A stretch of 64,000 nt of DNA from Thermoanaerobacteraceae bacterium (GTDB lineage: Bacteria > Bacillota > JADQBR01), in assembly GCA_017656305.1 (NCBI GenBank), contig JACDOG010000008.1:1-64000 (forward strand). The letters are read 5' to 3'. The notes beneath the pieces were generated by a model. The model saw nothing but the letters and a program-made list of their open reading frames with translations. It was not told the DNA's origin and did not search any database. Shown here piece after piece: positions 7,743 through 60,047 of this stretch (positions within the stretch are counted from its first letter, which is position 1; every line of letters begins with the position of its first letter). The position numbers and the translations under genes are program-made.

Positions 7743-8915
7743 TTAACTTTCAGGTTCCCTAATTACCGGGTGAAGCTCTCGCCATTCTTTAATTTTAATC
7801 CCGCTTCCCGGCAGGTCAAAGTGCAGGTCATTTAAAAACCTGTCATTATAAATCAGCTTGTTGTTACCGGAGGCATTTATGGTCCGTGCCATCAGGTAAC
7901 CTTCCAAATCCACATTTCCGTTGGTAGTGTAAGTTCCCTCGGATACCAGCACACCCTGCACATTTTTGGCATTACTGCCAACTGCAATATTTTGCTGACT
8001 GATGATCACCAGATTGCTTTCCGCATCGGCAGGTGTTAAGTCACAGTTAAGATAAACGTTTTTTTCAGCCACTATAAGCCCTGTACCCGAATACCTTTCG
8101 CCGGCACACCTGCCCCTGGTCTTCCCTATGGTAACATCTCCCTTGACATAAATAATCTTATCGTCCATACCTGTCAAGTCTTCCTGCTTTAGCTCCTGGT
8201 CTTCCCCGTAAACCACATCCGCTTCAGCTTCCCATTTTTCATAATCAACGGAGGAAATCTCCGGCAACGAAACACTGGCGTATTCCTCCGTATAACCGGT
8301 TATCGTTCCGTTGTTGTCAATATAACCGCCGGCCCGTACATCACCGTCAATGCGGCCTTGATTTTCCAAGTTGCCACCCAGGGTAACGTCCCCCGTGACG
8401 GTTGTACTAGGCCCTATACGCAGGCTGCCGTTATAAATCAAGTCACCAATGATGGTGAAATTTCCGGTAAAAGTCAGGGTCTCGTCCTCTCCCTTACCCA
8501 CCACAAATGCTGGCACGTAAGGCAGTACTTCAACAACAGCATACATAGACTTCTTTGCCTTCACACTGCCATCGGGGCGTCTGATTTCGCCTACACTGGT
8601 AACTGTCAACTCATTGCCTGACTGCTGGACATTTAAGGATGCGAGAAACCCGTCACCGATGGGGATATTGGTGAAGTCCTTATCCCAGTCTGCCGGCCAG
8701 CTATTAAAGTTGGGGTTGTCCTGCAGCCCGGCAAGAAATTTGTTTATCCCCGCATCCGCTATGTACAGTGCCTTAACATCATCAATATGATTAATGCTGA
8801 TCTTTCGCTCGGTGGCAGCAACCTGCAGCAGGGTCGTGCCGGTAAGAAACAACACCAGAACCGCCATAAACACTATGATAAACGCCGCTCCCCGCTGGTC
8901 CTTCCACCAAAGCAA
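7743..8915 (-). CDS. PilX-like pilus-associated protein with polymer-forming beta-helix region
   Basis: 390 residues. The N-terminus (WWKDQRGAAFIIVFMAVLVLF, then TERKISINHIDDVKALYIADAGIN) is of PilX_N type: a pilin-like hydrophobic helix without the usual processed Gly-Phe and followed by the ALYIADAG motif. The middle (about residues 145-210) holds hexapeptide-like repeats of the bactofilin/DUF7305 kind, such as ITVTGDVTLGGNLE-like steps and GRIDGDVRAGG. The start is TTG at 8915 behind GGAGGAG. In Gram-positive pilus operons such proteins are presumed tip or minor-pilin complex members. The exact role here is unknown. Confidence 0.75.
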   Translation of the reverse strand: MLWWKDQRGAAFIIVFMAVLVLFLTGTTLLQVAATERKISINHIDDVKALYIADAGINKFLAGLQDNPNFNSWPADWDKDFTNIPIGDGFLASLNVQQSGNELTVTSVGEIRRPDGSVKAKKSMYAVVEVLPYVPAFVVGKGEDETLTFTGNFTIIGDLIYNGSLRIGPSTTVTGDVTLGGNLENQGRIDGDVRAGGYIDNNGTITGYTEEYASVSLPEISSVDYEKWEAEADVVYGEDQELKQEDLTGMDDKIIYVKGDVTIGKTRGRCAGERYSGTGLIVAEKNVYLNCDLTPADAESNLVIISQQNIAVGSNAKNVQGVLVSEGTYTTNGNVDLEGYLMARTINASGNNKLIYNDRFLNDLHFDLPGSGIKIKEWRELHPVIREPES

Positions 8916-45314: not shown

Positions 45315-45755
45315 CTACCCCTCCTGTCCACCGTATTTCTTGTGATAGGCAACAATCGCTTCAAAAAAGTCAGCGAACCGTTGGTACTTTTCTTCGCTGG
45401 TACCTATCTCTCTTAAAGCGCGGTCCAGGACATCCTGCAGGTCCCTTACCTGGTCCTTATGCCGGCCAGCAATATATGCCAGTTTGGCTCGCATCAGATT
45501 AATGCGGTAGGATCCGTTTTCTTTTTTGAATTTGAGCCGCTTGACATCAGAATATAACTTGCGAATCTGGGAAGTGGTCATCTTGGTCTTCTTAGCAAGA
45601 TGCTCACCCAACGCTTCAGCCGTCTCTACCAAAAGCTTACCGTGTGGATCTTTTTCTTTGTCAAGAAGAAGAGGAACATTTTTTAAAGCTTTGTTGACAA
45701 CTGTTTCTTTCCCCCGTCTCGGTTTCCGGTCATTAGGCCAGTTGCCAGTCAACAT
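45315..45755 (-). CDS. csm2: Type III-A small subunit Csm2
   Basis: About 146 residues, helical small subunit that lines the target-RNA channel. Recognisable segments are AEALGEHLAKKTKMTTSQIRKLYSDVKRL, LMRAKLAYIAGRH and RFADFFEAIVAYHKKYGG. ATG 45755 shares its A with the cas10 stop (TAATG) and follows AGGAGGG. The N-terminal 25 residues are basic and probably disordered. Confidence 0.92.
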   Translation of the reverse strand: MLTGNWPNDRKPRRGKETVVNKALKNVPLLLDKEKDPHGKLLVETAEALGEHLAKKTKMTTSQIRKLYSDVKRLKFKKENGSYRINLMRAKLAYIAGRHKDQVRDLQDVLDRALREIGTSEEKYQRFADFFEAIVAYHKKYGGQEG

Positions 45756-48160
45756 TAATCCCTCCTTGTTCTCAGTTCTTTTTCTGCCCAACGAGCTGCA
45801 TATACGCTGTTTTTATATATCAATGTCCTGCTCGTTATTATCCGCTTTTCCAGTTCCTTCAGCGTGGCCCTGGCTTGTTTATGCCGTGCAGCCAGGCGGC
45901 TTAAAGCATATACCAGTCTCCATACCCGGTTCAACGGGTATTTGCCTTCGCAGTAAAAGCACTGGTCAATATAGGCAGAATTTATATAGGTTATCAGGGC
46001 TTTGGATACCCCTTCGGTTCCAATTGCTTTTACAATGAGGTCTTTTACCTCTTTCAGTTCTCCAAGCTCATCCCAGCTAAAAGCATGTCCAAGGAAACAG
46101 ATGCTGTCTTTTTCGTGGGATGAATCTCCAACCTCCCTGATACTCTTTGCCTTCCTATCCAGTTCTTCTCCTGCAGTATGGGCTACCTTAAAAAGAGGAT
46201 AGGTTATTCCCGGCGCGATGCTAATAGCACAGGAAAGGGTAAGATGCGGGTTGTTGGAGCAGTAGCGCCGGAATTCCTGGTTAATCTCCGCAGCTACAGC
46301 AGGGAGTACGCTCCAGCTTCCAACCAAAAAGAAGTCATCTCCGCCTGCGTAAATAACATACACCGAGTCTCTATGGCGCAGGCAAATCTGGTTGAAGATA
46401 GCACTAAAGAAGAACGATATTTCCCGACTCAAGGCCGCTATTTTGGAGATAGACCTGTCTTCTCCCAAGCCTTCCGAGAACACCCTGCCCAGGTTGTCAA
46501 CATCTCCGCGCAGAACTCCCCACATGTTATCCCCGGTGCTACTTTGAGCTATTTCTTCGAAGGTGGCAATTCTGCCCTCGGATTTTAAGGGAGCCACGTT
46601 AGCCAGCCAGTAAGTTTTGTCTGCCTGGTATTTTTCCACAGAAGTGCTGTTGATGACCGATACTATGGCCCGATTGTCGGGTTTTTCTGCGAATTCTAAC
46701 CGGTACCCCAGTGCAGTCAAAACGTCGGAAACATTATTCATGGTTGAAGTTTCTCTGGGCGAAAAGAAATATTCAAGCACATAAGGATGCTGCCGTGCAA
46801 TCTTATCTCCAAGTTCCTCGAAGCTTTCACAAAAGGAACATTTGTCCTGCGTAGTTTTCACTGTACTTCCGCACAGGACACAGACCTCCTGTCCTTCGTA
46901 AACCGGTCCCAGCACCCGCTCAGGAGCTTGTTTAATGAGTTCCAGAAACTTGCGGTTCTTTTCTTTCTGAGACAATGCCCCTACTTCCTTCCACTTGCTA
47001 CCAAAAGTTCTCCGGTCAAAATCAGATAGCGTTAGGGAAACACTGCTGAGGATTACAGCAAGTTTGCCCCGGTGAGCCCGGTAGAGGATCTCATCAACAT
47101 GCTTTTTGTAATCAGCAAGCCGAGACCGGGCTGATACCGGAAGGAGTAGGTAGAAGTGTCCCCCTCCCGAGTAGAGTATGTTGCAGGGGAACAGCCTTTC
47201 CTGATAAAGGATGTAGTTGGCAATGGCGTCGCAGAGAACAGACAGGTAAAAGGAACGTCCCCGCAACCCTTTGGCAGCCCCTTTGCTGGTTATGTCAAAG
47301 ACAAAATCCTGGATTCCTGAGATGTCCCCGCTTACGAGGAGCAGCATTGGTTCGTTCTTATCCTTTTTCTTTCCTCCGGGCAAAAGTGCCCTGTGCATAG
47401 ACTCAAGAGTTTCTTTGTCCAGTCCTTGCCTGTAGAAGGCAGAGGCTATTGCTGCAGTAGCCTTGGAGTGGTCAAACAGAGATATGGTCGGGCTAGAATA
47501 GTATGCGGCGGAAGGAATTGTCTGGGTATACCTCTGCAGAAGATGGTATAGCTGATAGAATTTTTTCAGACCAGAGTCCTTTCGCGCTAAAGTCGCAGTT
47601 ATTTTTTGTTTGAATTCATTCCACCACTGCTGGTAATCTCCTTCGAGTATGGCTTCTGAATCCCGGGAGACAGGGTAGGAATCTGAAATCACATCGAAGC
47701 GCAGTTTTTTATATCCAACGGTCCCGTCCTGTACACCCTGGCGGATGTGTTTGACAGTAGATAAAACCGAATACAGCGGAACGCTGCTGACATCCACCTT
47801 GCCTTCAAAACTGGGCCCTTCTTCATCCCGCTCTGCTGCCGAGAGCTTGTCAGCAATGGCTACCATAAGCTCAAGTTTTTTTTCAGGGGCGTGGTGTTTG
47901 AGAGCTATAATTTCAGTTCTTTCGTCTTTTAGAACTGTTCTCAGGAAATGAGCACTCCACTCCTGGTGAGTTATGTAGTGTTTCCCGAGTTGCGATAAAT
48001 ACCATTCATAGCTTTTCTCTACTTCGGCTTTATCGCGGGTGTTCCGGGTTCGTTGGTAGAACTTACCTATGTCGTGAAAAAGGGCACCGTATACCACGGT
48101 TTCAAATTCTTCTCCGTAAAATGGGCTGTCTATCTCCTCCACCTTCTTTCCTGGAACCAA
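45755..48160 (-). CDS. cas10: Cas10/Csm1, signature protein of type III-A CRISPR
   Basis: 801 residues. N-terminal HD nuclease motif GALFHDIGKF (H29-D30). A zinc finger, CVLCGSTVKTTQDKCSFC, in the middle. The second Palm domain has YAGGDDFFLVG (GGDD 606-609), so cyclic oligoadenylate synthesis and ssDNA cleavage should both be possible. The start is TTG 48160 without a ribosome site; GTG 48142 behind AGGAAAG is a good alternative. It heads an operon csm1-csm2-csm3-csm4-csm5-cas6-CARF/HEPN without cas1, cas2 or a reverse transcriptase, so it must share spacers acquired by another system. Confidence 0.95.
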   Translation of the reverse strand: MVPGKKVEEIDSPFYGEEFETVVYGALFHDIGKFYQRTRNTRDKAEVEKSYEWYLSQLGKHYITHQEWSAHFLRTVLKDERTEIIALKHHAPEKKLELMVAIADKLSAAERDEEGPSFEGKVDVSSVPLYSVLSTVKHIRQGVQDGTVGYKKLRFDVISDSYPVSRDSEAILEGDYQQWWNEFKQKITATLARKDSGLKKFYQLYHLLQRYTQTIPSAAYYSSPTISLFDHSKATAAIASAFYRQGLDKETLESMHRALLPGGKKKDKNEPMLLLVSGDISGIQDFVFDITSKGAAKGLRGRSFYLSVLCDAIANYILYQERLFPCNILYSGGGHFYLLLPVSARSRLADYKKHVDEILYRAHRGKLAVILSSVSLTLSDFDRRTFGSKWKEVGALSQKEKNRKFLELIKQAPERVLGPVYEGQEVCVLCGSTVKTTQDKCSFCESFEELGDKIARQHPYVLEYFFSPRETSTMNNVSDVLTALGYRLEFAEKPDNRAIVSVINSTSVEKYQADKTYWLANVAPLKSEGRIATFEEIAQSSTGDNMWGVLRGDVDNLGRVFSEGLGEDRSISKIAALSREISFFFSAIFNQICLRHRDSVYVIYAGGDDFFLVGSWSVLPAVAAEINQEFRRYCSNNPHLTLSCAISIAPGITYPLFKVAHTAGEELDRKAKSIREVGDSSHEKDSICFLGHAFSWDELGELKEVKDLIVKAIGTEGVSKALITYINSAYIDQCFYCEGKYPLNRVWRLVYALSRLAARHKQARATLKELEKRIITSRTLIYKNSVYAARWAEKELRTRRD

Positions 48161-49619: not shown

Positions 49620-49976
49620 TTACGATGACAAATCTTTAATAAGTTTTTGAATAGCCTTTTTTTCAATCCTGGAAACATAGGAACGGGAGATACCCAACTT
49701 TTTAGCAATTTCCCTTTGAGTTTTCCGCAATCCATTAAACAGGCCGTAGCGCCACTCCAGCACCTGCTTTTCCCGTTTGTTCAGCTTTTTCACATGCTCC
49801 AGCAGACGTTTCCTTTCCTGCTTATTCTCCACCATTTCCGCCACTATATCTGCTTCCGTGCCCAGCACGTCTTCCAGGCAGATTTCGTTGCCTTCCTTAT
49901 CTATACCGATGGGATCATACAGAGATACCTCACCCCTGGTTTTCTTTTTTGAGCGCAGGTGCATTAAGATTTCATT
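49620..49976 (-). CDS. sigK: C-terminal half of sporulation sigma factor K, interrupted (SpoIIIC-like)
   Basis: From NEILMHLRSKKKTRGEVSL onward this is the end of sigma region 2.4 through region 4 of sigma-K/sigma-E type factors (DPIGIDKEGNEICLEDVLG, EVLEWRYGLFNGLRKTQ, REIAKKLGISRSYVSRIEKK). The first recognisable residues are NEIL, preceded by unrelated codons and a stop, whereas complete SigK proteins have about 110 residues before this point. The break coincides with AATGA at 49972-49976, the same pentanucleotide and position at which the B. subtilis skin recombines sigK. The upstream gene is a SpoIVCA-like recombinase on the same strand. So the gene appears to need DNA excision to be expressed. 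Its own ATG at 49964 has no ribosome site. Confidence 0.88.
   Translation of the reverse strand, partial: NEILMHLRSKKKTRGEVSLYDPIGIDKEGNEICLEDVLGTEADIVAEMVENKQERKRLLEHVKKLNKREKQVLEWRYGLFNGLRKTQREIAKKLGISRSYVSRIEKKAIQKLIKDLSS
49972..49976 (-). other. Predicted recombination site in sigK (skin att half)
   Basis: Minus-strand AATGA directly before ATCTTAATG, with sigma-K homology beginning exactly here. In B. subtilis, sigK halves are rejoined at a 5-bp AATGA shared by both ends. The partner site next to the N-terminal half of sigK is not in this window. Confidence 0.65.
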
Positions 49977-50159: not shown

Positions 50160-51680
50160 CTATTCACCCCCACCAAGCTTTGCCACTACCGTTATTTCTA
50201 TATTGCCCCACTTATTCCCGTGGGTTTGTCTGCCGTGGATTACTACCTGTTTCACCAGGAGCCGCACCAGTTCCTTCTTTTCCTCAAAAGACAGATCGTC
50301 TAGCCGGTCCAGGAAATCCGCAGTAATCTTTTTAATTTCTTCCGCCCTGTACTTCAAGTTTTCTTCGCCGTTGATCTCATCTATTAATTCCCCCTTTCTT
50401 GCTTCCAGCCTGGCAATCCTTCTTTTCAGTTCCGACAGCATTGCCTCGGTCTTTTCATCCAGGTCCACCAGCCCGGAAGCCAGGGTGGACAAAATATTAT
50501 CCCTTCCCTTCATAGCTTCATTTAGTAGCTTATCCACTTTTTTTAGCTCTTTCTTCAAATTTTCCGCATCCGGCCTGCATCTGGAGGCCTCTTCCGCTAC
50601 TCCTTCCGGGTCAAAAACCCACTGCTTCACCTGCTCCCAGACAGCATCTTCAATAAGAGAAGCTAAAATCATTTTCCTAGGCCGGCAACCAACATTCTTT
50701 GCACCCTGAGTAGGCTTGGCACAGGTATAGCGCCGTTCTTTCCTTCCCCACCAATTTGCATAGACACCGGTCATGGTATTACCGCAGTCACCGCAGGAAA
50801 TAATCCCACTGAGAAGATAATTCTTGGTGCCCTTACTGGCCCACAGCCTCCTGGCCTCTGCCAGTTTTTCCTGGGCCCTAATAAAAGTCTGTTTATCAAT
50901 GATTGCCGGTACATTTATAGGAATCCAGTCTTTTTTATCCCTTGTTTCAAACTTATTTCCTTCACATTTACGCTTACGGTAATACCACACACCCATGTAT
51001 GTAGTATTAGAAAGGATCTGAATGATAACCTGCCTGTGCCATTTAGCCTTACGTGTCTTTGTCGGAATATCCTTATCATTTAAATACCTGGCAATACCGT
51101 TTGCCCCCCGGTCTTCCTCAATAAACAGCCGGAAGATTTCCCTAACAACTTCCGCTTCCCGTTCGTTTATCGTTATCTTTCCGGTTTCCGGATTATAATC
51201 ATAGCCGTAGGTATTAAAACCAACCGGAACGCCACCCTCCCTGGCCTTTTGTATTTTGCCTAAAGAAGTACGCTCCCTTATTTTTTCCTTTTCATACTCC
51301 GCAATGGCACCCCTGACCGAGTAAAACAGCCTCCCTTCCGGAGTATCCTTCCAGTCAAAATTCAAAAACTCCAATTTCACTCCTGCTTTTTCAAACTCTT
51401 CAGTGAGAACCAGCTGGTGCGATAACTTTCTTGATAACCGGTCAGGATCGCGGACAATTATACAGTCAACTTCTCCCCTTTTTACAGCCTCCCTTAAAGC
51501 AGTAAGTCCCGGACGCTCCATAAGAGAACCCGAGACCCCTTCATCGGCATATACGGTTATATCTTCTTCCGAAGCCCCCAACTCAAAAGCTTTTTGTTTG
51601 CACGATTCCTTCTGCTCCGAAAGGCTGTACCCACGCACCTGGTCTTCGGTGCTTACTCTGGCATAAACGGCAAAGCGCAT
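50160..51680 (-). CDS. Large serine recombinase (SpoIVCA-like)
   Basis: 506 residues. Resolvase domain (residues 1-150) with catalytic Ser10 in YARVSTEDQVRGYS and RDPDRLSRKL. Recombinase domain (about 165-265: GGVPVGFNTYGYDYNPETG, REIFRLFIEEDRGANGIARYL). Zinc-ribbon with CGDCGN and later Cys residues, then a long coiled coil (about 375-450) that controls synapsis. It closes with ELVRLLVKQVVIHG. Its position next to a broken sigK on the same strand suggests it excises the element from sigK during sporulation, as SpoIVCA does. In B. subtilis the recombinase lies beside the other half, so the arrangement is inverted relative to that element. Confidence 0.92.
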   Translation of the reverse strand: MRFAVYARVSTEDQVRGYSLSEQKESCKQKAFELGASEEDITVYADEGVSGSLMERPGLTALREAVKRGEVDCIIVRDPDRLSRKLSHQLVLTEEFEKAGVKLEFLNFDWKDTPEGRLFYSVRGAIAEYEKEKIRERTSLGKIQKAREGGVPVGFNTYGYDYNPETGKITINEREAEVVREIFRLFIEEDRGANGIARYLNDKDIPTKTRKAKWHRQVIIQILSNTTYMGVWYYRKRKCEGNKFETRDKKDWIPINVPAIIDKQTFIRAQEKLAEARRLWASKGTKNYLLSGIISCGDCGNTMTGVYANWWGRKERRYTCAKPTQGAKNVGCRPRKMILASLIEDAVWEQVKQWVFDPEGVAEEASRCRPDAENLKKELKKVDKLLNEAMKGRDNILSTLASGLVDLDEKTEAMLSELKRRIARLEARKGELIDEINGEENLKYRAEEIKKITADFLDRLDDLSFEEKKELVRLLVKQVVIHGRQTHGNKWGNIEITVVAKLGGGE

Positions 51681-51695
51681 ATAGACTACAGCCCC

Positions 51696-51848
51696 TTACT
51701 TTAACAACTCCTTTTTGTAAATCCTCCGGATAATTTTTCTCGCCAAAAGCCTGCTGGCGGCCTTACGATTATCCTCATCGCTGTATACAACCGTAAGCCT
51801 GACCTTTTCGTTTAGCTTTTTTGTAGTGCTTACGGGCCGAACACTCAC
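51696..51848 (-). CDS. Small basic protein preceding the recombinase
   Basis: 50 codons, GTG 51848 after GGGGGAGGG, reading SVRPVSTTKKLNEKVRLTVV and YSDEDNRKAASRLLARKIIRR, then KKELLK. Basic C-terminal helix. It ends 15 nt upstream of the recombinase ATG, so the two are probably transcribed together. Not recognised; it could be a recombination directionality factor, which would be an inference from position, size and charge only. Confidence 0.5.
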   Translation of the reverse strand: MSVRPVSTTKKLNEKVRLTVVYSDEDNRKAASRLLARKIIRRIYKKELLK

Positions 51849-51934: not shown

Positions 51935-52110
51935 TTATGTTCTTGCTTTCTCCTCAAACAAACCGACAGACATCGTATTCCATGAAAAGTCACAGTCCAA
52001 ATTGGTACAGTGCAGCGTTACGAATAGGCCGTGCTCTTTGCCTCAATATACCCCGGCCTACTACAGTTCGGACAGTAAGCTACAGCCTCAACATTTACAT
52101 AAGCAACCAT
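51935..52110 (-). pseudogene. Frameshifted zinc-ribbon mini-protein
   Basis: From ATG 52110 the minus strand reads AYVNVEAVAYCPNCSRPGYI and stops; one base shift continues VTLHCTNLDCDFSWNTMSVG to a stop at 51935. Joined, the two halves make one zinc ribbon with CPNC and CTNLDC. A single-base deletion near 52020 would explain it. Confidence 0.5.
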
Positions 52111-52125
52111 ACATTTATCCCCCCA

Positions 52126-52157
52126 ATAAAAAATACCTACGGCATAGAAACCGTAGG
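52126..52157 (-). terminator. Terminator (bidirectional hairpin)
   Basis: CCTACGG (52136-52142) pairs with CCGTAGG (52151-52157). On the minus strand it is followed by TATTTTTTATT. It lies after the structured RNA region and would end a transcript coming from the right. Confidence 0.65.
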
Positions 52158-52309
52158 AATTTATATTAAATAATCTACATCCTGCTACTTTATCCAGAAA
52201 AAAAACTAAAACTACTGAGTATTAATGTTATGTAAACTAACACCCCTATCCAAATAACTCAATTCTTTAGAAATACCAACTGTGTACTAAAACTGGAATA
52301 TAAACCAAA

Positions 52310-52600
52310 ACCGGTTGCGCTCACTAACGCGCTGCCTTCCCCGCCTTCGGGTCCCACCGCGGGTTTTTACCCCGCAGCCGACGGAGTCACTCTACGCACA
52401 TGCACTTCTGGGGTAAGTGCGGTTCCCCGAACCGGAAAAGCCAACTAAGCCTTACACCGTATGAAAGCAAGAACACACTTTCACCGTTGTGCTCGGCTGT
52501 CATTGCCGGCTCAACCGGTCAGGTACACCGGCGTAAGCCCGGTCAGACTCTCTCCCTCCGAAGTTTTCTTGCCCCATCCTCCGGAGAGCTAAGTTTTCAA
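52310..52600 (-). ncRNA. GC-rich structured RNA candidate
   Basis: A 290-bp GC-rich island in AT-rich sequence with no supported ORF and at least six short perfect hairpins: ACCGG/CCGGT (52527-52543), CCGG/CCGG (52506-52518), GGTTC/GAACC (52421-52433), CACTT/AAGTG (52403-52419), GCGGG/CCCGC (52359-52375) and GCGC/GCGC (52317-52332). CTCTCCG near 52590-52580 and CGGAGGGAGAG near 52550 can pair as an outer stem. The strand is chosen because the only terminator faces that way. It may be a HEARO/omega-RNA-like or intron-derived RNA without its protein; I cannot confirm a family. Confidence 0.55.
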
Positions 52601-52685
52601 AGAACGAAAAGTTATATGTTACACCAAAAAATGGTATAATAGCATTTAACAGAAATTAAAAAAAATGCCCTTTATCGTTGCATTC

Positions 52686-52874
52686 TTAATCAAAAAAAAT
52701 TTCGTCAATGTTGGCCTCAAAATACCTAGCAATCTTCTTAGCAAGCTTTAGAGTAGGATTTCTCGTATTTTGTTCAATCATCCCATAGAAAGCCCTTGAA
52801 ATTCCTAGTTCTTCAGCAACTTCTTTTTGTGTAAGTTTGCGCTGCTTTCTAAGTTTTACTAAGTTACGCCTCAT
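52686..52874 (-). CDS. XRE-family regulator (Cro-like)
   Basis: About 62 residues, a single helix-turn-helix: NLVKLRKQRKLTQKEVAEELGISRAFYGMIEQNTRNP, then LKLAKKIARYFEANIDEIFFD. ATG 52874 follows GAGGGGG; the frame start 21 nt upstream has no support. Divergent from the XRE repressor at 53028 with shared operator-like repeats between them, as in a phage-type switch. Confidence 0.85.
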   Translation of the reverse strand: MRRNLVKLRKQRKLTQKEVAEELGISRAFYGMIEQNTRNPTLKLAKKIARYFEANIDEIFFD

Positions 52875-52890
52875 ATGCCGCCCCCTCGTT

Positions 52891-53004
52891 TGCAACCAAT
52901 AGTGGCAATTGTTGTGTCTTATTATAATGCAACCATTCGTGGCATGTCAAGAGTTTTTGCAACTTTTTAGGGTATTTATTTTTTGATGCCACATATTGTG
53001 GTAA
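52891..53004. promoter_or_regulatory. Three operator-like repeats in the divergent XRE promoter region
   Basis: TGCAACCAATAGTGGCAA (52891-52908), TGCAACCATTCGTGGCAT (52928-52945) and TGCCACATATTGTGGTAA (52987-53004) share a partly palindromic TGC(A/C)AC...(T/G)GTGG(C/T)A pattern. They lie beside both start sites, the arrangement expected for sites recognised by one or both XRE proteins. Confidence 0.7.
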
Positions 53005-53027: not shown

Positions 53028-53405
53028 ATGGATTCCTTAGGAAGAAGAATACAAAAGCTTCGTAAGCAAAAAAATCTAACCCAACAAGAACTTGCTACAG
53101 TTATTGGAATCTCCAGAGGGTCTCTATCTATGATAGAAATAGATAAACGTGAACCTGATAATCAAACCTTAAAGAAGTTTGCAGATTTTTTTAACGTCAG
53201 CACCGACTATCTTCTCGGCCGCACCGATGACCCTTCATATCAAACGGACGAGCTTTCTGAAAAAGAACTGGAAGAAATTATTAAAAAAGAAGGTATTATG
53301 TTTGATGGTATCCCACTGGATGAGGAAGATAAAGAAGACATTATAGAAGTAATGAAAATTGCCTGGAAAACTCTTCAAAGGCGGAAACATAATAAGTCCA
53401 AGTAG
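53028..53405 (+). CDS. XRE-family repressor (SknR/Xre-like)
   Basis: 125 residues. The HTH domain is residues 5-60 (RIQKLRKQKNLTQQELATVIG, SRGSLSMIEIDKREPD). LKKFADFFNVSTDYLLGRTDD is the usual end of the domain. The C-terminal 55 residues are an acidic/helical tail probably used for dimerisation. With the ImmA-type protease 130 nt downstream it forms the repressor-antirepressor pair known from phages, ICEs and the B. subtilis skin element. AGGTG ribosome site. Confidence 0.88.
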   Translation: MDSLGRRIQKLRKQKNLTQQELATVIGISRGSLSMIEIDKREPDNQTLKKFADFFNVSTDYLLGRTDDPSYQTDELSEKELEEIIKKEGIMFDGIPLDEEDKEDIIEVMKIAWKTLQRRKHNKSK

Positions 53406-53534: not shown

Positions 53535-54032
53535 ATGAACTACGTGTTAAAAGAAGCACATAAACTGATGAAGCAGTTTGGTACCGGTGAACCACATCAA
53601 CTGGCAGAATACCTTGATATTGAAGTAATAAAATATCCTTTCTCTAAACTTAGGGGAATGTTCTTTACCATAAAAGGTCAAAAATTCGCTGCAATAAATA
53701 ACAACCTAGGTATTTCAGAACAAAAGTTTACTCTACTCCACGAAATTGCCCATGCAAGGCTGCACCCTGAGATAAACTACTTTTTTATTAAAGAAAATAA
53801 TCTAATTGTAACCGGGAAGTACGAACACCAGGCACACCTCTTTGCCGCTGTGCTTCTGCTCCGGGAAACGCCAGAAGAGTACCGGGCCCAAATAGCACGT
53901 AACCTTACAAAGAAAATTCCCAGCCTTTACATAAAAAAACTTCTAAATTGGGAAGAAACAAAAATGCATTCACCGGTAGTAACAGAAGAGACGAATGCAT
54001 TTAAAAAAGAAGTGTCCATCAAAATGAGATAG
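53535..54032 (+). CDS. ImmA/IrrE-family zinc metallopeptidase
   Basis: 165 residues. The zinc motif is LLHEIAHARLHP (HExxH), with a downstream Glu-containing helix (YEHQAHLFAAVLLL) supplying the third ligand. ImmA-type enzymes cleave the cognate XRE repressor after DNA damage or conjugal signals, starting element transfer. The GGAGG ribosome site is 7 nt from ATG. It follows the repressor on the same strand with a terminator between them. Confidence 0.9.
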   Translation: MNYVLKEAHKLMKQFGTGEPHQLAEYLDIEVIKYPFSKLRGMFFTIKGQKFAAINNNLGISEQKFTLLHEIAHARLHPEINYFFIKENNLIVTGKYEHQAHLFAAVLLLRETPEEYRAQIARNLTKKIPSLYIKKLLNWEETKMHSPVVTEETNAFKKEVSIKMR

Positions 54033-55144: not shown

Positions 55145-57733
55145 TTAATCACCATTGTTTTCCAATAAGTTCTCTAATTCACACCTGAATTTTTCTTGAC
55201 CTTCTAACAATCTTCCATCTTTTAGATATTCAAAAAATTCCGCATATCCGTTGGGACTTAAAAAATGAAAAATATACTTCTGTTTAATTCCTTGTTCTTC
55301 CAATTTTTTGTTTAATCTTTCAAAATGTTCTTTAGAATATCTGTATTTTGCTTTATTCTCGTCAGAATCATCTCCATCAGATTTGATTTCAACAACAATG
55401 AAATATTCAATTTCATCTTTCTTTATCTTTATAAAGAAATCTGGATTAAAAGTTGAGTTCGGTTTTTGATGTCCTCCCTTTCTCCAAGTATATTCTATGC
55501 TATAAAATCCTCTATCTCTTGATTTTATCCACGCATCTATTTTTTCTGCATTTTCTTTTTTACATAAAAGTTCAACAAATTTTCTTTCTGGATCTGCATT
55601 TGTAAAAACTATATTTAAAGGTGTTTTAAATAAAAATTCATTTTGTTCTTTAAGTGCATATCTTGGTAGGGTTTCATCTTTAATTAATTCCTTCAACAAT
55701 TCTTTTTGCTCGTCACTTTGGATTTCTTCTTCAAAATTATTAGTATAAAATATGGAACAATTTCTTCTTAAATTTCCAATTCCTATACTTTCCCTTCGAA
55801 TATCTATAGTTTTGATCTTAATAGGTTCATTAATTTTTTGAATTGTAGTTACTGTTTTCCCTTTCTTTCTTAAAAGAGTTCCGAAGGCTTGCAAAATCTT
55901 ATTAACATTTTTCTGGGTCAACCTATCTCCTCTTATTCCTACTCTTTTCATGGATTTAATAATTATGTCTTTAATCCTATCTCTTGGAGGAAGATTATTT
56001 TTAGTATATTGATCTTCTCCTAATTGTAAAACTCTTCCTTCCCAGTCTCTGATAGAAAATTCGTCATATATTTTATCTACAACTTCTTCCACGCTCCACG
56101 TATTATACTCTATAGCATAGTATTTTTCTCTTAACCCTCCTGATATCGATTCATAAACTGTTTCTTTGTTAACAATTTCAACTTGTGATTCTAGTTTTAT
56201 CCCCTCTTGTTCGATTCTGGAATAATCATAAATTTCTTTATCTCTTTTATGCTCTATCTCGATTTCTTCTTTACTATAATCTAGATTATATACTTCAAAG
56301 TTATATTTTGCTCTTTTCCCTTTTTTTATAACTTCACTATAAATTCTTGTTTCGATTTCAAGAATTTCATCAACAAGTCCTCTAATATTTCTACTCCAAG
56401 CATCATGATTAAATACAATAACTCTTGGCTGTGGTGATTTGTATTCTTCAGGAATTCTTAAACCTCTTCCTAAAACCTGAGCTATTAGCAATTTCGAATT
56501 AAATGCCCTATCTTCCCATGGAACAATTTGAAAAACATTTTTCACATCCCAGCCTTCTGTAAGCATAGATACCGATACAATCCATTCTGTTGGATCGTTT
56601 TTATCGTCAACAGTTTCAAGTTTTGGTATATTAGCTTTATGTTCTTGAGCAGAGGTAACAATTAAAACTTTTTGTTCTATATTTTCTCTTGAAATCTGTT
56701 CTTTCTCGACTAATAGATCAATTAAATCTTCTCTTAAATTTTTTGCACTTGATATATCTTTTGTAACTAAAATGGTCAACGGCTTTATTCTTGAATACTT
56801 TTCTTTATTTTCTAAGTGATTTTGATATATCTTTTGAAATTTTTCACCATTAATACTATCGTCTTTTTGGACATACTCAATATTTTTAACAATTTTATCT
56901 TCAATTGCCTCTCTTAAAGAATATCTGTAAATAACATCGTTAAAATATTCGTTATCAATATACGCCGTTCCAGTAAAACCTAAAATATATTTAAAATTAT
57001 AATCTGGGTTTAATAAAAAATTTTTCCATTTTTTAATACTTTGACTTTCTTTATTTTTACCTGTTACTTTATTAAAAATATGATGAGACTCATCATTTAA
57101 AACTAAAACTCTTTCTCCTTGATTTTTAAAACTATCTTCAATTGACGATCCAGTTCTTTCATAAACCGCATGAATGTTTTCAACACAGATATCTCCATTT
57201 TTAACAGTTACGTCAGCATTTACAATTCTTGGATTTTTATATTTTGCACTTTTAGGAATAGATTTTTTGAGTCTTGCATCACCACTTAATTTTTTAAATT
57301 TCTCGGTTAATCCTGATTCTATCGTTAATGAAGGGCATAGAACTAACACTTTATCAACCAGGTCAAGGCCTAATATAATTTGGGCTATTCCATAAATAAC
57401 ATAAGATTTTCCTGTTCCTGTTGCCAAGTCAATGTTTGCAGAAAGTTTTCCTGGGAGTTGCAAATGCCTTTTATATTCATTCAAAGAGGAATATTTTACC
57501 TTTAACTCAGGATTTTTTTCAAAATTCTCTTCTACTAAATCTTCAATTTTTCCATATCTCCCTGAAGCCAAATAAATAACAGCATTCCTGATTGCTTCTT
57601 TTTGATACTCTCTATCTCCACAAAGCACTTCTAAAAAAGATTCCCAAGCATCCAAATCTAATTTAGTAGGATCATAAACCGTATTAACTTTTAAAACCAA
57701 ATCTTTTGTTTTATATATTTTTATTTCTTCCAT
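55145..57733 (-). CDS. res: Type III restriction endonuclease subunit (Res)
   Basis: About 862 residues. SF2 helicase motifs: LATGTGKSYVIYGIA (Walker A, about residue 107), LNDESHHIF (DEAH-type), VSMLTEGWDVKNV and QVLGRGLRIP (motifs V/VI). The C-terminal nuclease domain has NPDFFIKIKKDE and VVEIKSDGDD, a PD-(D/E)xK site. Type III enzymes need two inversely oriented sites and ATP-driven communication. ATG 57733 follows GTAGGTGATAACT; an in-frame GTG is three codons upstream. It is 9 nt after the Mod gene, an operon. Confidence 0.93.
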   Translation of the reverse strand: MEEIKIYKTKDLVLKVNTVYDPTKLDLDAWESFLEVLCGDREYQKEAIRNAVIYLASGRYGKIEDLVEENFEKNPELKVKYSSLNEYKRHLQLPGKLSANIDLATGTGKSYVIYGIAQIILGLDLVDKVLVLCPSLTIESGLTEKFKKLSGDARLKKSIPKSAKYKNPRIVNADVTVKNGDICVENIHAVYERTGSSIEDSFKNQGERVLVLNDESHHIFNKVTGKNKESQSIKKWKNFLLNPDYNFKYILGFTGTAYIDNEYFNDVIYRYSLREAIEDKIVKNIEYVQKDDSINGEKFQKIYQNHLENKEKYSRIKPLTILVTKDISSAKNLREDLIDLLVEKEQISRENIEQKVLIVTSAQEHKANIPKLETVDDKNDPTEWIVSVSMLTEGWDVKNVFQIVPWEDRAFNSKLLIAQVLGRGLRIPEEYKSPQPRVIVFNHDAWSRNIRGLVDEILEIETRIYSEVIKKGKRAKYNFEVYNLDYSKEEIEIEHKRDKEIYDYSRIEQEGIKLESQVEIVNKETVYESISGGLREKYYAIEYNTWSVEEVVDKIYDEFSIRDWEGRVLQLGEDQYTKNNLPPRDRIKDIIIKSMKRVGIRGDRLTQKNVNKILQAFGTLLRKKGKTVTTIQKINEPIKIKTIDIRRESIGIGNLRRNCSIFYTNNFEEEIQSDEQKELLKELIKDETLPRYALKEQNEFLFKTPLNIVFTNADPERKFVELLCKKENAEKIDAWIKSRDRGFYSIEYTWRKGGHQKPNSTFNPDFFIKIKKDEIEYFIVVEIKSDGDDSDENKAKYRYSKEHFERLNKKLEEQGIKQKYIFHFLSPNGYAEFFEYLKDGRLLEGQEKFRCELENLLENNGD

Positions 57734-57742
57734 AGTTATCAC

Positions 57743-59809
57743 CTACCTAATATTAAAAATTTCCGCAAAATCATTTCCGTATATATCTGAGTAAACTACC
57801 ATAATTTGCTTACCCACCTTTAATTTATTTAATTCAATAACCAATCCATTATCTTTTATCTCTTTCAATTTATTTCTAATATCTTTTTCATTTTCATCTT
57901 TTTTCTTAGATTCTTTAGGTAATAATTCGTCTGCAAAATAAACCTCATCCATTTCAAAATATTTTCCGTTATAGTTTTTATCAATAAACACTGCCGACAA
58001 TGTTTCAAGATTTTCTAAAATTTTCCCTTCTTCATCTTTATAATATTGGCTCCTAAATTCTTTAATTATTATTTTCACTTTTTCACTGTCTATTTTTAAT
58101 TCAGTCTTTACTTCTGGCTGTCTTATAAAATGAAAACCTATTACTTCTTCTAAATCATTTACATTTTTCTTACTTTGTGGTTGTCTTAACCTTTGAAATT
58201 GTATTTTATGCAATTCTTTTATCACCTGATAAGGGATTTTTAAAAAGTAATATCTTAATTCATCTATTTCATAATAATCTGTTAAGAAATCAATGTAATT
58301 TGCAGGAGCTATAATATAAACTCTTCCCGATACTCTATTTCCTATCGTTTTATGTATTTCGTTTAGATAATTTTCATCTACTGACGCATTTTTAAATTTT
58401 CTATAATCAAATACTTTTACAGGATATTCTCCTTTTTTACCATCAAACTTAAACCCTGCAATCTCAAAAGGATTTATATCTACTTCAAAAAGCTGAGATA
58501 CAAAACTTAAATATCTCTCCCATTCCATATCCAAAGCCTGCTTTAAATCATATAGTCCAAGCCTTGCTGTTATAAAGCTCTTCGCTTTTTTGCCATATTT
58601 CCTTTTGGGATTTTCCAAATCTTTACTGCTTTGTATTGTCAAAATCCTTTTTTGCATAGTGTAGTAAGAATATTTTCCAATATCACAAACTATCCATCTT
58701 CTACCAAGTTTTTCAGCTACTGCTGCTGTTGTACCTGAGCCTGCAAAGAAGTCTAAAACAAGATCTCCTTCTTTTGTAACTGATTTTATAATTCTTTCCA
58801 ATAATTCTTCGGAGTTTTCTGTTGGATAATCATATTTTTTTGAATATCCCGGGATATCTGTCCAGTTAGAACCTATTGTTTCCCACTTAGTTAAAAATTC
58901 TGGCATTTGTTTTTCTTCATTCCATCTTACCAATCCCTGAGCAATTGCATCATCAAATCCTTCTTGACTTAACGCCCACCTTCTACCCTCTGGAGCTTTA
59001 ACTTTTTTCCCAAAAATATTTCTATATAATAAACTTTCGTCTTTTCTACTTCCAGGTAAGTGCATATCTACCCATTTCCATTCTTTCTTTGGTTTTAATT
59101 TTCTGTACCCGTAAAAATTCAAAAAATCTTTATTTTTAGCATAAAAAAAGATTGTATCTGTTGCTGTGGCAAATTGTTTATGTTCTCCTTTCAGTGTCCT
59201 GGTTCTTTTTACTACAATTTCATTTCTAAAATTCTCTTTTCCAAAAATTTCATCCATTATAACTTTTACGTAATGTCCAAAATGATAATCAAGTCTTACA
59301 AAAATACTACCATCATCTGCTAAAATTTCTTTCGCTAAAATTAGTCTTCTCCTTAAAAATTCAACAAATTCAGCACCTTTTCTTTTAGCACTATAAGCAC
59401 TTTGCCCTTTATTTCCATCATATTCATCACCTGTTCCGAACGGTGGATCAATATAAATAAGCTTTACTTTGCCTTTGACCTTATCTTTTATTAAAGGATC
59501 TTTATTTTCATAAATCGTTTTTAGAAACTGCAAATTATCCCCAAAAACAATCATATTTTTCCAGTTATCGTCAAAGGCCTCATGTTCTTCTCCGTTAAAA
59601 ACTTTATCAATCTGTAAAGGAACAGGGAAAACACCATCTTCATTAGCAAGTAAATCTTCTTTTCTAATCTTACCTGCATAAACAAGCTCATATTCTTTCT
59701 GTTTTGTAGGGAAAAGTTGATACTTAAATTCTTCAGGCAATTCTTTTCCTTCTTGAATAAGTTTTATAATAAATTCCTTTTGTTGTTTTGTTAATTTTTT
59801 TTCTATCAT
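57743..59809 (-). CDS. mod: Type III DNA methyltransferase / specificity subunit (Mod)
   Basis: About 688 residues, beta-class order: DPPF (motif IV) at about residue 124 in LIYIDPPFGTGDEY, then target-recognition region, then LDFFAGSGTTAAVAEKLGRR (motif I) at about 358. N6-adenine methylation is the usual product, and Mod alone sets the recognised sequence of the system. ATG 59809 after GAGGTG is preferred to the GTG three codons upstream. It is AT-rich and much less GC than the housekeeping genes on the left, consistent with transfer. Confidence 0.93.
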   Translation of the reverse strand: MIEKKLTKQQKEFIIKLIQEGKELPEEFKYQLFPTKQKEYELVYAGKIRKEDLLANEDGVFPVPLQIDKVFNGEEHEAFDDNWKNMIVFGDNLQFLKTIYENKDPLIKDKVKGKVKLIYIDPPFGTGDEYDGNKGQSAYSAKRKGAEFVEFLRRRLILAKEILADDGSIFVRLDYHFGHYVKVIMDEIFGKENFRNEIVVKRTRTLKGEHKQFATATDTIFFYAKNKDFLNFYGYRKLKPKKEWKWVDMHLPGSRKDESLLYRNIFGKKVKAPEGRRWALSQEGFDDAIAQGLVRWNEEKQMPEFLTKWETIGSNWTDIPGYSKKYDYPTENSEELLERIIKSVTKEGDLVLDFFAGSGTTAAVAEKLGRRWIVCDIGKYSYYTMQKRILTIQSSKDLENPKRKYGKKAKSFITARLGLYDLKQALDMEWERYLSFVSQLFEVDINPFEIAGFKFDGKKGEYPVKVFDYRKFKNASVDENYLNEIHKTIGNRVSGRVYIIAPANYIDFLTDYYEIDELRYYFLKIPYQVIKELHKIQFQRLRQPQSKKNVNDLEEVIGFHFIRQPEVKTELKIDSEKVKIIIKEFRSQYYKDEEGKILENLETLSAVFIDKNYNGKYFEMDEVYFADELLPKESKKKDENEKDIRNKLKEIKDNGLVIELNKLKVGKQIMVVYSDIYGNDFAEIFNIR

Positions 59810-60047
59810 AGTCAACACCTCATTTTATAATCTTATTTATAATTTAGATCCGTAGGTAAACAATAAAAATGCCAGAATATGCGCATATTAAGAGCTAAAA
59901 TCTCCTAAACAATTCAACGGCCTTCTTTTAAAAAGGTCGTACAATTTGTTTATATTCGAACAGGTCGGATATCTTTCCATATTTGGAAGATATGCGACTA
60001 TGTTGCATATACATCTCTCTGGTCGACTGTGTATCACTCGCATTCTT

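Follow-up and report, generated by a model that had tools for sequence, protein, structure and literature searches.

We find that the minus strand at about 52305-52606 of the window, by which we mean the whole 64,000-nucleotide stretch analyzed here (contig JACDOG010000008.1 of a Thermoanaerobacteraceae bacterium), encodes a genuine structured RNA. Judged from its sequence, the RNA is best read as a boxA leader to which a conserved RNA domain has been added, and seems to represent a new family of RNAs. Because its boxA is of the rRNA type and it stands at the head of excision genes, the RNA probably helps decide whether its host mobile elements can move.

An earlier note, made from the sequence letters of this stretch, had proposed a structured RNA at 52310-52600 on the basis of GC content, hairpins, and the lack of an ORF. 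The GC content does lie well over that of the surroundings, at 58% vs. 36% in either flank and 45% in the whole window, and exceeds that of 96% of 291-bp windows. The hairpins do not carry the same weight: six perfect ones had been claimed, and we counted four perfect stems of at least 5 bp, compared with 2.0 ± 1.2 in shuffled sequences, and because 37 of 300 shuffles reach four stems, the hairpin count alone is unconvincing. The minus strand folds better than its shuffles (z = -2.3, with 3 of 100 shuffles as good); no such excess is seen for the plus strand (z = -1.2), and that of the minus strand is weak when taken alone. What is convincing is covariation in homologues, as described below. 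The claim that the island holds no ORF was essentially right, since frame lengths are not kept in homologues, although there is a 79-aa ATG frame at 52400-52639 on the plus strand; antisense protein frames across the island were rejected on the same ground. The proposed interval is indeed RNA, but the unit is larger, because it begins at a promoter/operator near 52641 and has its boxA at 52605-52592. The terminator that the note had seen 3′ of the island on the minus strand is present as an 8-bp stem at 52157-52136 followed by TATTTTTT, about 150 nt beyond the 3′ end of the conserved fold.

Searching 61 genomes at the DNA level, we matched copies of the RNA in G001 (82% across 204 nt) and G048 (69% across the full length), and a phylum-wide DNA search added two further copies in G120 that lie 2.2 kb apart. 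When a covariance model of the 3′ part of the RNA (R1) was run on 398 genomes of the phylum, it turned up diverged copies, three in G284, two in G111, and one in G350, and a second model (R2), built partly from these diverged copies, recovers the same set with E values between 2e-33 and 3e-9. The total is 11 copies in seven genomes including the window (10 copies in six other genomes of the phylum). Nine are intact and two are damaged, namely the G001 copy, which is missing its 5′ part, and the degenerate G111:C56 copy. The latter (L051, oriented strand, near 8587) adjoins the end of an apparent tyrosine recombinase gene near a tRNA, and it is a possible remnant of another element. We attributed to chance the model matches at E 0.003-0.009 (G009 and G214) and the short blastn matches in G065 and G249.

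With nine copies in an alignment that was fitted to its own structure and whose sequences are few and related, 97.8% of cells are paired, vs. 87.5% for shuffles and at most 58% when the partners are slid, and 10 of 26 pairs have changed on both sides. The slid-partner controls agree with this covariation, as do the counts for P1 and P2. These two helices lie outside the models and were counted in a MAFFT alignment of eight copies from which the variable apical domain had been removed; there they are 98.9% paired with three pairs altered on both sides. The changes in P1 are A-U to C-G or U-G and C-G to U-A, and P2 has a C-G to U-A change in G048. The search of related genomes for covarying copies that the note had called for therefore came out in favor of a structured RNA read from the minus strand within a skin element, with pairing retained through compensatory changes. 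Long unpaired stretches of the fold (motif A, motif B, and the P6 loop) are near-invariant, and hairpin P0 forms in all eight of the distinct copies folded despite differing sequence. P2 is mutually exclusive with a local GGUUC/GAACC hairpin; both are able to form in the copies examined, and because the bases involved are nearly invariant, covariation can hardly pick between them.

Table 1. Features of the RNA locus and its neighborhood in the window
Feature	Position	Strand	Basis or remark
sigK C-terminal half, outside the element	about 49620..49964	-	SigK model positions 116-226 of 227
Large serine recombinase (LSR; Resolvase, Recombinase, and Zn_ribbon_recom domains)	50160..51680	-	domain matches
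Possible 50-aa ORF just 5′ of recombinase	51696..51848	-	no Pfam match
Possible 30-aa Cys-containing micro-ORF	52018..52110	-	read from sequence
Intrinsic terminator separating RNA from recombinase	52128..52157	-	predicted from sequence
Conserved core	52305..52544	-	covariation
P1 closing helix	52544-52535 with 52316-52305	-	covariation
P2	within core 52305..52544	-	covariation
Variable apical domain of P2	52436..52514	-	20-102 nt among copies
P3	52420-52402	-	part of conserved core
Motif B	52397-52387	-	part of conserved core
P4-P5	52386-52339	-	part of conserved core
P6	52332-52317	-	part of conserved core
Hairpin P0, directly 3′ of boxA	52550..52588	-	folding
boxA GTTCTTTGAAAACT	52592..52605	-	sequence identity to rRNA leader site
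Palindromic operator-like site TTATACCATTTTTTGGTGTAA, overlapping the -10	52639-52619	-	conserved with G048 and both G120 copies; function inferred
Promoter -10 TATTAT	52641-52636	-	conserved with G048 and both G120 copies; function inferred
XRE-type regulator upstream of RNA	52686..52895	-	own 12/12 sigma-70-like promoter at 52950-52921
Divergent XRE-type regulator	53028..53405	+	Pfam
ImmA/IrrE-like peptidase (Peptidase_M78)	53535..54032	+	Pfam

The boxA is the sole exact copy of GTTCTTTGAAAACT in the host genome. It is identical at 14 of 14 positions to the 23S rRNA leader boxA of G002, which is of the same family as the host, and of G086, which is of the same genus as G048; the comparison is with relatives because the host assembly is without its own 16S rRNA. 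In all nine intact copies there is a boxA that differs from GTTCTTTGACAA at no more than two positions. It lies 157-159 nt before motif B in the compact type, whereas the window, G048, and G120 have a longer interval of about 208-238 nt. That boxA is a general habit of LSRs was considered and rejected, with a boxA-like site in one of 30 sampled LSR loci and there without this fold. At L069 (G086:C4), a boxA-like GCTCTTTGAAAA is found about 780 nt before the recombinase motif of another serine recombinase, in a different long leader and with the RNA absent.

Two types of control region precede the RNA, and the promoter is conserved inside each. The window, G048, and both G120 copies have a -10 such as TATTAT together with a palindrome that reads TTATACCA-N5-TGGTRTAA or close to it; the window promoter has no clear -35. 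In these loci, the RNA has XRE-like genes immediately upstream of it, with Pfam having been run on those of the window only, and the two XRE genes and the ImmA-like peptidase of the window form, as read from their sequences, an immunity module. The palindrome is conserved but the XRE proteins next to it differ, and for this reason we make no claim that the neighboring XRE binds it. The promoter of the G284/G111/G350 type differs, with GTTGWCAAAA and TTTCTCTTTRT separated by 10-11 nt; each of the five copies has it upstream, it occurs one further time in front of a sigma-like ORF of G111, and it was not found in the other loci scanned. The G284a, G111, and G350 elements encode a sigma-70 region 4 protein, which in G284a and G111 is preceded by an HTH_16 ORF, and the elements at L046, L047, and L048 possibly have a split sigma factor of their own with its own promoter class. 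G284a and G111a also have a c-di-GMP-I riboswitch (L039:88-181, plus strand; L040:2857-2947, minus strand), placed about 1.3 kb upstream of the RNA and before the sigma-like ORFs, which it may control. Two unlike control systems ahead of one RNA would fit a role in element induction.

The skin element that the note had only supposed is real, with sigK split in two and the serine recombinase at one edge. It is about 50 kb long, and the N-terminal half of sigK is found on the same contig near 99.8-100.1 kb (minus strand). Its cargo includes a type III-like methyltransferase (57743-59818, minus strand) and restriction enzyme (55145-57742, minus strand), and the Cas10/Csm1 gene of a type III-A CRISPR system is located near the sigK end of the element (45755-48160, minus strand).

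All 10 copies with readable surroundings are oriented toward the gene that follows them, which is on their own strand. The RNA is about 0.4 kb ahead of a same-strand LSR in G284 (three copies), G111, and G350, where the recombinase appears frame-broken, and 0.6 kb ahead of the LSR in the window, with small ORFs and an intrinsic terminator intervening. One G120 copy is 1.3 kb ahead of a recombinase with cargo in between and the other precedes a Fic gene, as does the truncated G001 copy; in G048, an NTase and HEPN pair follows the RNA and the recombinase comes 3.5 kb on. The RNA-to-recombinase interval contains a recognizable intrinsic terminator in the window and G048 only, none is recognizable from the RNA to the LSR in G284, G111, and G350, and in most copies none is seen shortly past the RNA. 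Two of the insertion sites are of interest in themselves. At G048:C16 (L005:3071-6098), the recombinase gene runs into the beginning of a YifB-type Mg chelatase-like gene, of which the first ~25 model positions are missing, so the element seemingly inserted at the start of that gene. At L047 (G111:C60), a C-terminal spoVK half (TIGR02881 positions 135-261) lies directly after the recombinase, and spoVK is apparently a further sporulation gene split by a serine-recombinase element.

LSRs occur in 216 of the 398 genomes of the phylum and none of 30 sampled LSR loci has a copy of the RNA, so the RNA marks a subset of LSR loci. The RNA-associated LSRs share ~24-34% identity, and tree building did not group them with support, a result that is indicative only, the G120 and G284a LSRs having been dropped from the larger tree by the extraction filter. 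Exclusive pairing with one LSR lineage was rejected on these grounds, and the leader RNA and the recombinase may be a loose pair. The covariance-model searches covered this phylum only. We also scanned 84,980 species for an exact pattern that was modeled on the window-type 3′ end and would miss the G284/G111/G350 type; the scan gave three matches (the G120 locus, the G001 locus, and a Pseudomonadota contig, L025), which suggests that the RNA family is rare or diverged. Distant blastn searches that used the window copy and a G111 copy as queries matched no phage or plasmid record. IMG/VR pattern scans gave two and five matches, which were rejected as chance because they have no further similarity (the five are also without a model match), and two other IMG/VR patterns gave zero matches. 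Unlike neighbors had prompted the idea that the RNA is a small mobile insertion in its own right, and this was dropped when the recombinase/cargo pattern emerged.

The rRNA-type boxA and the consistent same-strand place before recombinase or cargo argue for a leader RNA rather than a guide RNA, and we think it rather probable that the island RNA is a nut/put-like 5′ leader of the excision/cargo operon that works through boxA antitermination or leader folding. Transcription would start near 52628 from a promoter overlapping the conserved palindrome, and about 24 nt past the start, boxA would bind NusB-S10 as in an rRNA leader, followed by hairpin P0 and then the conserved P1-P6 fold. The assembled complex would ride with the polymerase and give resistance to Rho, and possibly also to the intrinsic terminator at 52157, and/or the boxA complex would aid leader folding. 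Transcription would then reach the recombinase gene 0.6 kb downstream, recombinase and cargo would be expressed on induction, and excision would need the RNA. The switch would be turned on by the element's regulators, i.e., the XRE/ImmA module in the window type and probably the split sigma factor in the G284/G111/G350 type. In E. coli, a 567-bp noncoding leader causes a Rho-dependent loss of expression that boxA relieves, and for rRNA, the main role proposed for the Nus complex is correct maturation rather than antitermination (PMC4807359; Nus complexes are summarized in PMC12691694). Either role of boxA would fit a structured untranslated leader before a recombinase. Because recognizable intrinsic terminators are found only in the window and G048, processive antitermination is something we infer, and in G284, G111, and G350, which lack one, only a Rho or folding role would fit. 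Against a leader, the long near-invariant core exceeds the needs of known nut sites and the RNA is missing from most LSR loci. It is possible, though on balance doubtful, that the P1-P6 fold itself modifies RNA polymerase, or is a switch or cofactor tying serine-recombinase expression to the excision decision.

The near-invariant unpaired stretches, which suggest an elaborate fold, could instead belong to a trans-acting element RNA of ~300-490 nt that stops at the terminator and has its target elsewhere, for example in excision or the toxin-like cargo, with boxA serving only full synthesis and folding as for rRNA. The terminator after the RNA in the window and the two copies within one G120 locus speak for this, but the constant facing of a same-strand next gene is not needed in trans and in most copies no terminator is seen shortly after, so we regard it as unlikely. 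The strong conservation of the core and the two exclusive pairings could also mean a sensor leader (riboswitch-like or a protein-binding attenuator) in which P2 and the GGUUC/GAACC hairpin exchange to control recombinase and cargo. However, in most copies, no obvious expression platform (terminator or sequestered start) is coupled directly to the core, boxA would be unusual for a riboswitch, and the downstream genes, being varied, give no hint of a metabolite, which makes this more improbable still. The note had offered a HEARO/omega-RNA, an intron core, or an undescribed RNA. Size and GC content are what recommends a HEARO/omega-RNA, an intron, or some other large ncRNA of a known kind, yet no Rfam 15 family matches the island RNA in the window at the gathering threshold, and neither HEARO/omega-RNA nor intron came up when the island and 10 homologous loci were scanned permissively; these identities are therefore unsupported and we give them very little credence. 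The intron models gave one sub-threshold match outside the island (20 bits, cut-off 140), no covariance model of GOLLD, ROOL, OLE, or any other Rfam 15 family matched in the window or the 10 homologous loci, and no IscB/IsrB/TnpB-type gene was noted in the ORF lists of the loci, of which some ORFs were scanned. Of the offered identities it is the undescribed RNA that holds, and the open-access literature on boxA, antitermination, serine recombinases, and structured RNAs yielded no description of such an RNA.

Elements with serine recombinases break up and restore genes of their host, among them sporulation genes, here sigK and, in G111, spoVK. Serine recombinases are widely used tools, and control of their elements is usually framed as promoters and directionality factors. 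If the island RNA is a leader as we propose, a ribosomal-type boxA leader would add an RNA layer to this control, boxA function outside rRNA in Firmicutes would gain a testable system, and a family absent from Rfam 15 would be added. If the P1-P6 fold acts as suggested above, the RNA would represent a class of mobile-element RNA that combines a host-type rRNA boxA with its own ornate domain.

HK022 put RNA is small and is not known to depend on boxA, and our RNA, compared with it by description, would work in a similar way if its fold itself alters the polymerase. The sigK skin elements of B. subtilis and C. difficile also have a split sigK with a serine recombinase at one edge (PMC5025042), but no report of such a leader RNA was found for them in the literature searched. 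GOLLD, ROOL, and OLE are likewise ornate bacterial RNAs, some of them from phages, with long invariant stretches (PMC12286853), whereas the island RNA has no Rfam match, is smaller, and is tied to serine-recombinase operons. It resembles lambdoid phage nut (boxA-boxB) in having a promoter-proximal boxA with a hairpin at once after it, in the early operon of a mobile element under a repressor module (cf. PMC12691694), but no N-like protein was identified here, the hairpin sequence is unconserved, and the RNA is far larger. With the rRNA leader it shares an identical 14-nt boxA soon after the promoter and before a long untranslated structured RNA; unlike that leader, it is unlinked to rRNA and has its own conserved 230-335-nt fold followed by recombinase or cargo.
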